32,298 nucleotides of DNA from Candidatus Dadabacteria bacterium RIFCSPHIGHO2_12_FULL_53_21. GTDB taxonomy: Bacteria; Desulfobacterota_D; UBA1144; Nemesobacterales; UBA2774. The stretch lies in the NCBI GenBank assembly GCA_001775255.1, contig MFCJ01000082.1, forward strand, positions 1 through 32,298, read 5' to 3'. Shown one piece after another: positions 9,114-14,388 of the stretch; position 1 is the first letter of the stretch; each line of letters opens with the position of its first letter. The position numbers and the translations under genes are program-made. The notes below the pieces were generated by a model. The model worked only from the letters and a program-made list of their open reading frames with translations, was not told where the DNA came from and did not search any database.

Positions 9114-10037
9114 ATGAGCCTCCTCAAGCTGGGAAAGGATAACTGGGTGAGGACAAGACCTACGAAGGAGGGGCTAACCTTTATCGCACTCAGCCTCTTC
9201 GTCGGATTTGCGGCCATCAACACGGGGAATAACCTCCTTTATCTCACTTTCGGTATCATGATGAGCTTCGTGGCCGCCTCGGGATTCCTGTCGATGATCA
9301 ACCTCTCGGGGATAGAGGTGAAAATACTGTCTCAGGGAGACGTGTTCGCGCTTACTCCCGCAACACTGAGATTCTCGCTCATTAACGGCAAAGCCGTCAT
9401 CCCTTCATACTCCCTCAATCTGGAAATCGATGAAAAAACAGCCTTCATTCCATACCTGCCGCCAAAGGCCGGGTCCGGGGCGTCGCTGAAACACGTATTC
9501 AGGGAGAGGGGGTGGAATAAAATTCCGGAAGCCAGGCTCTCGACGAGGTTCCCTTTCGGGTTTTTCAAGAAATGGATAAAGATAGACCTCGGGGACGACG
9601 AAGTCCTCGTATTCCCCAAAATAGATCCCATAGATCCCGGGGACGAAATATTCAAGGAAGGGCCGGGAGAGGCGGAATCGGAGAAGACGGGGTTCGGGTT
9701 TGACCTGAGGTCGATCAAGGAATTCCGGCAGGGCGACAACCCCAGGCTCATACACTGGAAAATGACAGCCAAAACTGGGAGGCTCATGGTGCGGGAGATG
9801 GAGGACGAGGAAATAAGGGGAGCGGTTATCGAATTCCACCCCGAAAGGGACAAAACGAGACTCGAGCACCAGATAAGCCGCCTCGCGTCGCTTTTCGTAG
9901 AGCTTCTGAAACGGGGGTTCGAGGTGGAGCTCAAAACCCCCGATATGACCTTTTCGAGCTCCCGGACCGGCAGATCTCCGAGGCCCGTGTTGAGATACCT
10001 GGCTTTGTTCAGGGCTGAAGAAAGAATCCGCGCCTGA
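9114..10037 (+). CDS. DUF58 domain-containing protein
   Basis: Two N-terminal TM segments and the DUF58 signature FDLRSIKEFRQGDNPRLIHWKMTAKTGRLMVREMEDEE. Confidence 0.9.
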   Translation: MSLLKLGKDNWVRTRPTKEGLTFIALSLFVGFAAINTGNNLLYLTFGIMMSFVAASGFLSMINLSGIEVKILSQGDVFALTPATLRFSLINGKAVIPSYSLNLEIDEKTAFIPYLPPKAGSGASLKHVFRERGWNKIPEARLSTRFPFGFFKKWIKIDLGDDEVLVFPKIDPIDPGDEIFKEGPGEAESEKTGFGFDLRSIKEFRQGDNPRLIHWKMTAKTGRLMVREMEDEEIRGAVIEFHPERDKTRLEHQISRLASLFVELLKRGFEVELKTPDMTFSSSRTGRSPRPVLRYLALFRAEERIRA

Positions 10038-10141
10038 TCTCCGAAACCGCCCCGAAACAGACGTTCGCCTGCGATCGGATGACGAGAACCTTCAGGGTGA
10101 ACGGAAAAAGACATACCCTCTATTTTCAGGTATAAATTCGT

Positions 10142-10576
10142 ATGCCGAATAAATCCGACGAGGAACTCATACTCGAAGTAAACGAAAGGTTCTACAGGGC
10201 TTTGGGCACGAGGGACCTGGGGCTCATGGACACCGTGTTCGTCCGCGACGAGAGGGCCGGCTGCACGCATCCGGGCTGGGTGATGCTCAGGGGATGGGAA
10301 GCCATCAGGCAGAGCTGGGAGAACTTCTTCGACCCGGAAGACAGGCTCGCTATAAAACTCCACAACGTCACCATCGACATAAATGGGGACGCCGCGTGCG
10401 TTACATGCGTTCAGGAGCTCATGTACGTAAAGAGAAACCCGGTCATGATGAACGTCTCGATATCGACGAATATATTCGAGAGGACCGAATCAGGCTGGCT
10501 GATGGTAATCCACCACGCCTCCCCAATCCCCTTCGTCACCGAAGAAAAAGAGAGAAAACAAAGTAAGCTGCAGTGA
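10142..10576 (+). CDS. SnoaL/NTF2-like (DUF4440-type) protein
   Basis: 144 aa: NERFYRALGTRDLGLMDTVFVRDERAGCTHPGWVMLRGWEAIRQSWENFF...NIFERTESGWLMVIHHASP, NTF2-like fold pattern. Confidence 0.82.
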   Translation: MPNKSDEELILEVNERFYRALGTRDLGLMDTVFVRDERAGCTHPGWVMLRGWEAIRQSWENFFDPEDRLAIKLHNVTIDINGDAACVTCVQELMYVKRNPVMMNVSISTNIFERTESGWLMVIHHASPIPFVTEEKERKQSKLQ

Positions 10577-10703
10577 GGGGCATATCCCTATCATGCCTTG
10601 TCTCTTCATCGATTCCTTCAGAAAGCGGAACAGGATAAATTAAATACTTACTTTGCTAAGCACCACCCTCCGTGATAACCTTTTCTTGAGTTTATAACTT
10701 ATT

Positions 10704-13586
10704 ATGACGAAAGAAGAATATGATGTTTTCTTTAGTTACGTCCATAAGGACAAAGATAGCGCGATCAGAATTGTCGAAGCCCTCCGAGCATCAGGTATAA
10801 AAGTCTGGTTTGATGAAAACGAAATTAAAGATTACGATGGGATCATAAGACATCTTACCAAAGGTCTCTCCCACTCAAAAGCCCTAGTCGCCTATTACTC
10901 AGCCAAATATCCTAAAAGCCGTTTCTGCCAATGGGAATTCACCTCCGCTTTCCTGGCAAGTCAAAGAGAGGGTGATCCCACCAAACGAATCATGGTTTTA
11001 AATCCCGAAAAAGGTCATGAGCACATTATGCCTTCGGAATTTCAAGGTGCTCTATTTAAAAGAGTTCCAGAAAATGTAGATGATGCGGCCTTAAATGTTA
11101 TTGTAGAAAGTATAAAAGAACGAGTCTCAAGAATTGCTAACCCTATAGGACATATATCCACTTTTGACAAGCCGACTTGGTATGGAAGAAATGGAATCTT
11201 TTACCCAAACTTTGTGGGACGGCTCAGCGATATGTGGAACATTCATACAAAACTGAACTCCTATGAAACTATACTAATAACAAGTGGCACGGCACAAGTA
11301 CAGGGTATGGGCGGGATTGGAAAGTCTCTATTAGTAGAAGAATATGCTATGAGATTCGGGGCTGCTTATCCGGGTGGTATCTATTGGCTAAGCGCATCTC
11401 AAGCCGACCCAAAAAATCCAGATTCAGAACTAGAAAGACAATTGCGTAACATTGCGCTGGAGCTAGGAATTCCGAGACATGCTTTTGAAACCGATAGAGA
11501 AGAAGAGAGACTGCCTTTAATTATTGGTGCAATAGGTCATCATCTCAAATCATATGAAGCTCCATCACTCTGGATAGTGGACGATATTCCCGTTGGTATG
11601 AACAGCGAAAATTTAAGAAGATGGTTTGCTCCTCATCACAATGGGAAGACACTCATAACTACGAGGAGTACCGAATATAATGTTGCAGAGCGAATACCCC
11701 TGGATGTGCTTGAAAAAGAAGATGCCTATACCCTAATCACTAGCAGAAAAAAACCAAAGAATGAACTAGAAGAAAAAGCTGCATGGGAGATCATCGAGAT
11801 GCTTGGTTTCCATGCGCTTGCGGTTGATGTTGCTTCCTCCGCTCTTCAATTCCAAAGCTATTCAGAATTCTTAGAAGGACTCAAAAATCCAAAAGAAGAC
11901 GAGTTAGAGCTTGCGGCTAAGTTAACTGGCCAATTACCAAATGGGCACGAACCAAGCATTGCAATAACCCTTCTCCGAAGTATAAAACTTTTAAGTGATG
12001 AAGGAAAAGATTTCCTCAGACTCGCATCGATATTAGCAGAGGCCCCAATTCCCTCTAAGCTGGTACAAAAGGTTTTTGAATTCTCTAATGGGATTGATGA
12101 ATCGGAAGCCAGGAAAATGGGCTTACTAGCACTCCATCAGGTTAATTCTCACTCCCTAGCAACACCAGTTGAAGGAGAAGAAGCTTGGGAAGTACATACG
12201 TTAATTTCTCGTACAATGCGATTCCATGAACAAACTGAAAATACAATCAAAACATTCCCTACTAAACTATACAGTACAATTATCGAAGCATTAAATTATT
12301 TGTTGTCTGAAAACGTATTAGAGATACAACGACATGGACAAATAAAATTCGAGATTATTCATGTAAGAAAACTCACAAACAATATAAACACAATGAATTC
12401 CGCATTACTTGCAGATCTGCTGGGTAAGTATGATTTTAATAGAGGTTCTTATAATTCAGCCGAGACTCTACAGAAAAAAGCCTTGAAAGTTTTAAAAAAG
12501 GATCGAGGCGAAAAGGATCGAGATACACTCGGCGTTATGAACAATCTAGCCTTATCATTAGATGCACAAGGAAAATACAACGAAGCAGAAACAATTCAAG
12601 AAAAAATATTGATAGTGACAAAACAAGTATTCGGACACGAGCACCCTAATACACTATCACTTTTGGAGAACACAGCTCTCACAAAATACCGAAAAGGAGA
12701 TTATCATGCTGCTAAAAATATTCTAACAAAGGTTTTATCAACGAAAGAAAGAATCTTGGGCAAAGAACATCTTGATACACTTACAACTATGAATAACTTA
12801 GCTAATATTTTACGAGAACTTGGGAATCCGAATGAAGCTAAAGTAATGCTTGAAAATGCGCTTAAAATACTTTTTCAGATCAAAGGAGAAGAAAATCCAC
12901 AGACGCTAACAACAATGAATAGCTTAGCAATTACATATAGACAAATTGGAGATTTGACGAACGCAAAAACAATATACGAGAAATCATTGACAATTCGTAG
13001 ACGGATACTGGGAGAGAAACACCCGGAGACCCTTAGTTCTGTAAATAATTTAGCCGAATTACTTATTGAAATGAATGAACTAGATGCTGCTACAAAGATG
13101 CTTCAAACTACGATTGAAATTTCAAAAGAATTACTCGGCGAAGAACATCCAGACACACTCACTGCAGTTAGCAATCTAGCAGTGGCAATAGGAACGCAAG
13201 GTGATTTGAATAAAGCTATATCAAGTTACCGAGACTTGCTCAATATTTGCACACGTATACATGGTAAAGAACACCCTGAAACAATACGGTGCATGAGCAA
13301 TCTAGCTTTCTACCTAGGTCAAGATGGTAAATTAGCTGAGGCAATTAAATTATGTGAAAAGGTTTTTGAAATAAGAAAGCGTCAAATGGGAACTAAAAAT
13401 TATAGCACTACCGAAGCCGCGTGGAATTTATTTTGCGCGTTGAATGAAAAAAAGGAACACCATGGAGCAAAAAGAATTCTTCGAGAAGAACTCCTTTGGC
13501 TTCTGAAGGCTGATGTTAATATTCTACACCCAAAACAAAAATACTATCGTGAACAGATCGCTAAAATTACTGGAGCTAAAAACTAA
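10704..13586 (+). CDS. TIR / NB-ARC-like STAND NTPase / TPR (kinesin light chain type) protein, candidate defense sensor-effector
   Basis: 960 aa. N-terminal TIR: YDVFFSYVHKDKDSAIRIVEALRASGIKVWFDENEI...GLSHSKALVAYYSAKYPKSRFCQWEF (putative catalytic Glu78, codon 10935-10937). NTPase: P-loop GMGGIGKS (11304-11327), Walker B-like SLWIVDDI, KTLITTRS sensor-like motif, GFHALAVDVAS in the GLPLA position. C-terminus: 42-aa TPRs of the form EHPDTLTTMNNLA...G...EA......L.....LG. Confidence 0.92.
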   Translation: MTKEEYDVFFSYVHKDKDSAIRIVEALRASGIKVWFDENEIKDYDGIIRHLTKGLSHSKALVAYYSAKYPKSRFCQWEFTSAFLASQREGDPTKRIMVLNPEKGHEHIMPSEFQGALFKRVPENVDDAALNVIVESIKERVSRIANPIGHISTFDKPTWYGRNGIFYPNFVGRLSDMWNIHTKLNSYETILITSGTAQVQGMGGIGKSLLVEEYAMRFGAAYPGGIYWLSASQADPKNPDSELERQLRNIALELGIPRHAFETDREEERLPLIIGAIGHHLKSYEAPSLWIVDDIPVGMNSENLRRWFAPHHNGKTLITTRSTEYNVAERIPLDVLEKEDAYTLITSRKKPKNELEEKAAWEIIEMLGFHALAVDVASSALQFQSYSEFLEGLKNPKEDELELAAKLTGQLPNGHEPSIAITLLRSIKLLSDEGKDFLRLASILAEAPIPSKLVQKVFEFSNGIDESEARKMGLLALHQVNSHSLATPVEGEEAWEVHTLISRTMRFHEQTENTIKTFPTKLYSTIIEALNYLLSENVLEIQRHGQIKFEIIHVRKLTNNINTMNSALLADLLGKYDFNRGSYNSAETLQKKALKVLKKDRGEKDRDTLGVMNNLALSLDAQGKYNEAETIQEKILIVTKQVFGHEHPNTLSLLENTALTKYRKGDYHAAKNILTKVLSTKERILGKEHLDTLTTMNNLANILRELGNPNEAKVMLENALKILFQIKGEENPQTLTTMNSLAITYRQIGDLTNAKTIYEKSLTIRRRILGEKHPETLSSVNNLAELLIEMNELDAATKMLQTTIEISKELLGEEHPDTLTAVSNLAVAIGTQGDLNKAISSYRDLLNICTRIHGKEHPETIRCMSNLAFYLGQDGKLAEAIKLCEKVFEIRKRQMGTKNYSTTEAAWNLFCALNEKKEHHGAKRILREELLWLLKADVNILHPKQKYYREQIAKITGAKN
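12513..13520 (+). repeat. Tandem 126-bp (42-aa) coding TPR units, about eight
   Basis: The codon equivalent to E/K in 'EHPDTL' falls at 12513, 12639, 12765, 12891, 13017, 13143, 13269 and (degenerate) 13395, exactly 126 bp apart each time. Confidence 0.88.
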
Positions 13587-13611
13587 CTTTTGACTCCTGA
13601 GATTAAAGACC

Positions 13612-14388
13612 TCATGAATCCCCGTTGTGGTTGAAGTGGAGTCCGCACTCCTTGTCGGAATCGGTTTCCCACCACCAGCGCCCCGCCCTCTCGTCTTCCC
13701 CGGGTTTGACGGCGCGCGTACAGGGGGCGCACCCTATGCTGGGGTATCCCATGTCGTGGAGCTTGTTGTAGGGAACCTTGCGCTCTTTTATATAATCCCA
13801 CACCATCTTGCTCGTCCAATCCACGAGCGGATTGATCTTTAATATGCCGCCGTTAAGCTCGTCTATCTCGAACTTCCGAGCCTCGGCCCTCGTCTCCATC
13901 TGGTCCCGCCTTATGGATGTTATCCAGCCGTCCATATTCGCCAGGTAGCGTTTGAGGGGCCTCACTTTTCTAATGTCGCAGCAGAGTATCCTGTTTTCCT
14001 TCCCTTTATAGAACAGATTAACCCCGCGCTCGAGCACCATTTCCTCGACCTCGGCCTTATCGGGGAAAACGACTTCTACCCTGGCTCCATATCTTTTTCT
14101 GACCTCGTCCATGACGTCGTAGGTCTCCTGATTGAGCCTGCCCGTATCGAGTGTAAATATCCTCGCCTCCCGGTTTATCGCCATGAGCATATCTATGAGG
14201 ACCATACCCTGGGCCTGAAAGCTCGAAGCGAGCCCGAGTCGCGGGTGTAAATTATCAAAGGCCCACCTGAGCACCTCGTCTGCGCCCCTGCCCTCGAATC
14301 CGAGGTTCAGCTCTCTGACCTCGTCAGGACTGAAAATCCGTTTCCGAGCCTCTATGCCCCGCGCTTTTTTACCTGCCGATCCTGACAA
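13612..14388 (-). CDS. cysH: Phosphoadenylyl/adenylyl-sulfate reductase, [4Fe-4S] type
   Basis: LGLASSFQAQGMVLIDMLMAINREARIFTLDTGRLNQETYDVMDEV, CCDIRKVRPL, ITSIRRDQMETRA, IGCAPCTRAVKPGEDERAGRWWWE, ECGLHF C-terminus. CC plus CxxC cysteines fit the Fe-S (APS reductase) type. Confidence 0.94.
   Translation of the reverse strand: MSGSAGKKARGIEARKRIFSPDEVRELNLGFEGRGADEVLRWAFDNLHPRLGLASSFQAQGMVLIDMLMAINREARIFTLDTGRLNQETYDVMDEVRKRYGARVEVVFPDKAEVEEMVLERGVNLFYKGKENRILCCDIRKVRPLKRYLANMDGWITSIRRDQMETRAEARKFEIDELNGGILKINPLVDWTSKMVWDYIKERKVPYNKLHDMGYPSIGCAPCTRAVKPGEDERAGRWWWETDSDKECGLHFNHNGDS

Follow-up and report, generated by a model that had tools for sequence, protein, structure and literature searches.

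The 32,298-nucleotide stretch of DNA analysed here (the window), from a genome of Candidatus Dadabacteria, a lineage that has received little study, carries a gene for a TIR-NB-ARC-TPR receptor at positions 10704..13586 of the forward strand. The gene stands alone in a short insert between conserved chromosomal genes. Its product is probably a self-contained, horizontally acquired, NLR-like receptor acting by abortive infection, the antiphage function being assigned by analogy with related systems.

Domain anatomy, fold, and conserved residues

The gene is one intact frame encoding 960 aa with an ATG start and no internal stops, whereas the antisense strand of the same interval is riddled with stop codons. 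The TIR domain (residues ~1–150) is followed by an NB-ARC STAND switch (~170–510) and then by seven clear 42-aa TPRs of the kinesin-light-chain type. Pfam matches are TIR_2 (residues 8–102, 5e-17), NB-ARC (residues 198–371, 3.5e-6; 26.9 bits, passing the gathering cut-off of 23.5 bits), TPR_12 (2.6e-86), and TPR_10 (1.6e-73), and no DNA-binding domain is found by Pfam in the protein. This order of domains recalls the build of plant disease-resistance receptors. A full-length AlphaFold2 (AF2) model built with 28 homologues has a mean pLDDT of 86.4 and a pTM of 0.77, and a whole-chain Foldseek search with it returns the STAND-TPR protein of PDB 6mfv, Apaf-1, the plant RPP1 resistosome, and kinesin light chain. 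The top structural match, 6mfv, shares the STAND domain and the TPR sensor; since the whole-chain TM-scores are low (0.35/0.48), this match supports the domain type and not a close kinship. Profile HMMs, the AF2 model, and Foldseek together confirm the single-ORF anatomy of TIR, NB-ARC-like STAND, and TPR that the earlier note had read from the sequence, and all the motifs that it had quoted (SRFCQWEF, GMGGIGKS, WIVDD ending at residue 294, TTR, and GFHALAV) are located in columns highly conserved among ~75 homologues.

The TIR domain occupies 10704..11153 (+; residues 1–150). Modelled alone, it reaches an AF2 pLDDT of 89.7, and its best Foldseek matches are the solved TIRs of BtTir, RUN1, AbTir, and PdTIR; the model shares the fold of solved NAD-cleaving TIRs. 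By sequence, the domain is nearest to BtTir, Cat1, and AbTir. The glutamate at the position equivalent to Glu78 is the catalytic residue of TIR NADases. In a profile alignment, Glu78 (CQWE; 10935..10937, +) is aligned with the Glu residues of Cat1, PdTIR, AbTir, and Roq1, in agreement with its earlier designation as a plausible catalytic residue. The alignment column holds Glu in 71 of the 78 rows that have a residue there (80 loci and the window protein), and in the 29 closest homologues neither Glu78 nor its surroundings vary. The homologues were recruited by two search patterns, one containing CQWE and the other being a Walker B pattern, so the conservation of Glu78 is partly circular by recruitment. 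The loci recruited through Walker B retain the Glu residue amid other neighbours (CQKEL, CQYEL, CRFEM, and CQQEI). Loss of the residue is confined to a distant Methylococcus-type branch, where His or Gln takes its place. These data support a TIR of the NADase type that retains the catalytic Glu, and NAD+ cleavage by it is predicted.

In six loci of the Methylococcus-type branch (L124, L127, L128, L130, L135, and L139), His replaces the catalytic Glu of the TIR domain (CQ.HLA). The replacement suggests that the domain of this branch may be a non-enzymatic, TIR-like one.

The NB-ARC core (11295..11816, +; residues 198–371) contains a complete set of switch motifs, conserved across ~75 homologues, which bears out the reading of an intact P-loop STAND NTPase. 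The P-loop/Walker A motif GMGGIGKS (11304..11327, +; residues 201–208) has its Gly and Lys residues in 75 of 75–76 rows, and in the Walker B motif LWIVDD (11568..11585, +; residues 289–294) Asp293 is found in 76/76 and Asp294 in 75/76 rows. The sensor-I/RNBS-B-like TTR motif (11658..11666, +; residues 319–321) keeps Arg321 in 71/77, and the GLPLA-like stretch GFHALAV (11805..11825, +; residues 368–374) also falls in conserved columns. The MHD-like motif of the winged-helix domain is VHTLISR (12192..12212, +; residues 497–503), with His498 found in 66/77 and invariant in the 29 closest homologues.

The nearest NB-ARC domains in the PDB by sequence (phmmer) are those of AfsR, a transcription factor, and also of Apaf-1. 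NB-ARC/TPR proteins can be regulators, and with AfsR as the closest match the protein could be read as a regulator or scaffold of AfsR/GutR/MalT-like STAND signalling, in which the TIR domain would serve protein-protein assembly instead of NAD+ cleavage. The loss of Glu in the distant Methylococcus branch is in line with this reading, since the family as a whole may include TIRs that are not enzymes. However, the Glu78 region is conserved in the close family, the protein lacks a DNA-binding domain, and a solitary, mobile gene that is missing from sister genomes (see below) is unlike a resident regulator. We consider a regulatory or scaffolding role improbable.

The C-terminal array (12516..13523, +) consists of 42-aa units starting at residues 605, 647, 689, 731, 773, 815, and 857, followed by a degenerate unit at 899. 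The TPR_12/TPR_10 matches and the 42-aa register substantiate the TPR array claimed earlier. The array is all-helical in the AF2 model, and its best PDB match by sequence is kinesin light chain.

Insertion site, distribution, and neighbourhoods

The gene lies within an insert of ~3.03 kb (10577..13611), which stands in place of ~26 bp and holds no other gene. In blastn comparisons with three same-genus genomes, homology to the window ends at 10577 and restarts at 13612. The flanks are a SnoaL-like gene (10142..10576, +; Pfam SnoaL_3) and cysH (13612..14388, −; NCBIfam cysH/APS reductase), which are convergent, conserved neighbours outside the system. In the three sister genomes the site is empty, with a SnoaL-cysH spacing of ~33 bp. 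The gene order rseP, (DUF58-like), SnoaL / cysH, transporter, sigma-54 regulator, pyrE is kept with minor gaps in same-genus and same-family genomes, in all of which the TIR gene is absent from the locus, and cysH is found in 19 of the 21 genomes searched. Relatives within the family lack the TIR gene altogether. The neighbours are uppS, dxr, rseP, and SnoaL upstream, and cysH, a Pho4/CysP-type transporter, the sigma-54 regulator, and pyrE downstream. The gene does, then, sit alone among unrelated housekeeping genes, as had been proposed, and its position is not a conserved core locus but an insertion point that is empty in relatives.

The TIR-STAND gene has a GC content of 0.386 and a GC3 of 0.305, against GC3 values of 0.61–0.75 in the measured neighbours. 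This contrast and the clean empty site favour a recent entry at this locus, and we favour a horizontally acquired single-gene insertion. A binning artefact is unlikely, given that a single contig carries both flanks and both show synteny with genomes of the same genus. The ends of the insert show no terminal repeats, no target duplication, and no recombinase, integrase, or transposase, and no partner gene or RNA is found within the insert (no Rfam match); the leader folds no better than shuffled sequences (z +0.81). Neither is there a defence island around the gene.

An antisense ORF of 343 aa (window 9332-10363, −) overlaps the DUF58-like and SnoaL genes (9114-10576, +). In relatives this frame seems to be broken up and shows less conservation than the forward genes, and it is thus probably a mechanical ORF.

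The distribution of the family is patchy and crosses phyla. In the phylum of the window, the TIR-NB-ARC core is present in 2 of 58 genomes, namely the window's own and that of another Candidatus Dadabacteria member of the same order (G016; JADFKM010000006.1). The G016 gene is also solitary, located between argC-like and cysteine-desulfurase-like genes at another locus, and has a different TPR array. Beyond the gene itself, the DNA around the two copies shares a single 19-bp stretch, which is not significant (E 0.09), and shared mobile-element DNA around both copies is accordingly rejected. The two proteins are sisters in an IQ-TREE phylogeny (100/100). Their core identity (66%) is close to that of cysH in the same two genomes (61%), so that, as judged from these values, the gene may instead have been in the order since ancient times, with extensive loss and relocation.

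A contig scan with a single sequence gave 0 loci, and a scan with a four-sequence alignment gave 80. Additional homologues, with ~31–44% identity, are from Acidobacteria, Azospirillum, Skermanella, Deltaproteobacteria, Brocadia, Chromatiales, Nitrospirales, ANME-2, and other Methanosarcinales. In the tree, Brocadia is paired with a Methanosarcinales archaeon (100/99), and starred branches mix Planctomycetota with Methanosarcinales. No homologue is found in viral contigs, and phage matches are confined to the TIR domain alone or to TPR/ankyrin proteins. With neither end marks, a recombinase, nor a viral-contig relative, transposon or phage cargo is rejected.

Several homologues, including some of Azospirillum and Skermanella, are plasmid-borne. 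Together with the solitary insert, this opens the reading that the gene could serve its carrier element, either in defence against plasmids and other mobile elements or as a selfish, addictive gene, rather than act against viruses. Against this reading, the gene has no antitoxin partner, and neither a recombinase, a terminal repeat, nor a target duplication is found at the insert. Moreover, the one published single-gene TIR-STAND-TPR protein that has been tested acts on phages (PMC9122126). A role of this non-antiviral kind seems quite improbable, and we return to the abortive-infection receptor as the preferred reading.

Some individual relatives have suggestive neighbours of conflict type. 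In Oceanospirillaceae (L086:5728-11713 and L088:5362-11899), the TIR-STAND gene is packed between TPR-S/patatin and MAP3K_TRAF_bd/TPR-S proteins, possibly as an operon with a phospholipase effector; a MAP3K_TRAF_bd/TPR-S neighbour is also found at L078. In Geobacteraceae and Pelobacter (L081:5279-7948 and L083:5290-7929), two co-directed genes precede the TIR-STAND gene. At L081 the pair encodes a C11 (clostripain-type) peptidase and a TIR-PASTA protein, and the set is possibly a three-gene variant. Further conflict-type neighbours are SLATT_2 (L084), HepT-like (L076), and CHAT-TPR (L066) proteins, and other relatives sit amid metabolic genes. PADLOC gives few strong defence matches among 68 neighbours of homologues; since this survey has no matched control set, we make no claim of defence enrichment.

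The genome of the window encodes two further TIR proteins. One, of 390 aa (C72, ~12238; L146:1477-2649), has a TIR domain resembling those associated with short Argonautes. The other, of 457 aa (C37, ~11988; L147:1489-2862), contains a Gly/Asn-rich stretch and probably spans the membrane, and its gene follows that of a 442-aa protein in which several segments are hydrophobic.

Relation to described systems

The window protein has the build of the TIR-NLR type, with TIR, STAND, and TPR in one chain and no partner gene in the insert. The TIR-NLR of P4-like satellites is a single-gene TIR-STAND-TPR protein that blocks phages (Rousset et al. 2022, PMC9122126). Compared by description, the two share an N-terminal TIR, a central STAND NTPase, and C-terminal TPRs encoded by one gene, and the mechanism proposed for the satellite protein is to sense, oligomerise, and degrade NAD+. 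However, the satellite protein resides in an E. coli phage-satellite hotspot. It is listed under TIR PF08937 and AAA PF13245/PF13555 in a later survey (PMC10952713), whereas the window protein is described by TIR_2, NB-ARC, and 42-aa TPRs.

The plant TNPs (TIR-NBARC-TPR; Johanndrees et al. 2022, PMC9806590) have the same domain order and the same set of P-loop, Walker B, TTR, GLPL-like, and MHD-like motifs, but are eukaryotic. Cell death by a maize TNP requires both the TIR catalytic site and the P-loop, and bacterial TIR-NB-TPR proteins have been noted as relatives of plant TNPs, with the likeness in the NB domain and not in the TIR or the TPRs (PMC9806590).

No Avs model of PADLOC v2.0.0 and no Avs structure is matched by the sequence of the window protein. 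Avs/AVAST proteins are STAND receptors that sense phages as single proteins. They share the logic of effector, STAND, and repeat sensor and the single-protein phage sensing (Gao et al. 2022, to the extent recounted in PMC9806590), but the NTPase of the window protein is of the NB-ARC class. The matches of the protein in PADLOC v2.0.0 are all weak, lie at the level of the TIR or the TPRs, and leave the NB-ARC uncovered. Those to Thoeris ThsB are weak and TIR-only (4.7e-6 at best), and the insert holds no ThsA partner.

The protein scores above the cut-off for the FxSxx-COOH TPR family (NCBIfam NF040586 FxSxx_TPR; 314.9 bits, cut-off 300), whose members combine AP-ATPase and TPR and in some cases a TIR (PMC7159879). 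In the account of Kaur et al. (PMC7159879), a TIR-AP-ATPase gene lies downstream of FxSxx peptide systems, and a Prosthecochloris homologue (26% identical) is annotated fxsT. The protein could accordingly be an FxsT-like TPR/TIR AP-ATPase of a peptide-processing conflict system, which needs a partner peptide and a radical-SAM enzyme. The best-scoring stretch for NF040586 is, however, generic TPR sequence (residues 726–929), and no FxSxx peptide or radical-SAM partner is found for the gene. The insert has no second gene to encode the peptide, and a search of the genome for the radical-SAM FxsB (TIGR04269) yields nothing above the cut-off; the genome is 86% complete, so that the absence is not absolute. 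The sole weak TIGR04269 match, of 21 bits, is background, as similar ones occur in 11 of 14 control genomes. The Prosthecochloris plasmid region itself carries no annotated FxsA or FxsB, which indicates that the fxsT label is wider than the system. Because the defining partner is not found, membership is rejected despite the HMM score, and we regard it as very improbable; the self-contained NLR-like receptor is retained.

The earlier note had remarked that TIR-STAND-TPR proteins were seen before in bacteria, and the literature bears this out (PMC9122126, PMC9806590, PMC7159879). The novelty hoped for is correspondingly weak, since such proteins are described and one is already validated as antiphage (PMC9122126). 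The window protein adds a documented member of a published architecture, in a lineage and a clade that PADLOC v2.0.0 does not recognise.

Proposed mode of action and turnover of the sensor

By analogy with related systems, the NB-ARC/winged-helix switch would keep the resting protein inactive in an ADP-bound state. The C-terminal TPR superhelix would bind an infection cue, most likely a phage protein, and binding would lead to nucleotide exchange and oligomerisation, bringing the N-terminal TIR domains together. The assembled TIRs would then cleave NAD+ through Glu78, and the loss of NAD+ would cause growth arrest or cell death before phage release. The class of ligand, the oligomerisation, the NADase activity, and the antiphage outcome are all predicted here from those systems.

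The sensor array diverges faster than the TIR-NB-ARC core between the two Dadabacteria proteins. Their identity is 61% in the TIR, 68% in the NB-ARC/WHD, and 32% in the linker, and 45% in the TPRs for the alignable part only. The eight TPR units of the window protein have a mean identity of 30% to one another, and three units of the G016 relative (L062, the same locus as L056) are mutually 88–90% identical. The number of units varies among homologues. These features fit a sensor whose repeats expand and then diverge, a form of turnover reported for fungal NLRs (PMC12222747).

A wider proposal is that the TIR, NB-ARC, and 42-aa-TPR clade forms a distinct antiviral receptor family, whose gene travels alone between bacteria and archaea that oxidise methane. 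The family would be a prokaryotic counterpart of the plant TNPs, with arrays that re-homogenise and diverge to change the ligand, as in fungal NLRs. We hold this proposal as speculative and, on balance, unlikely.

Neither the general architecture nor its role against phages is new to the literature. The window offers a clear example in which a complete receptor of the plant-NLR kind entered a chromosome as one gene, with the empty site kept in sister genomes, and documents a family common to bacteria and ANME archaea. Its TPR arrays, carried on a conserved core with unit identities of 30% in one protein and about 90% in another, give a direct handle on how prokaryotic NLR sensors change specificity.
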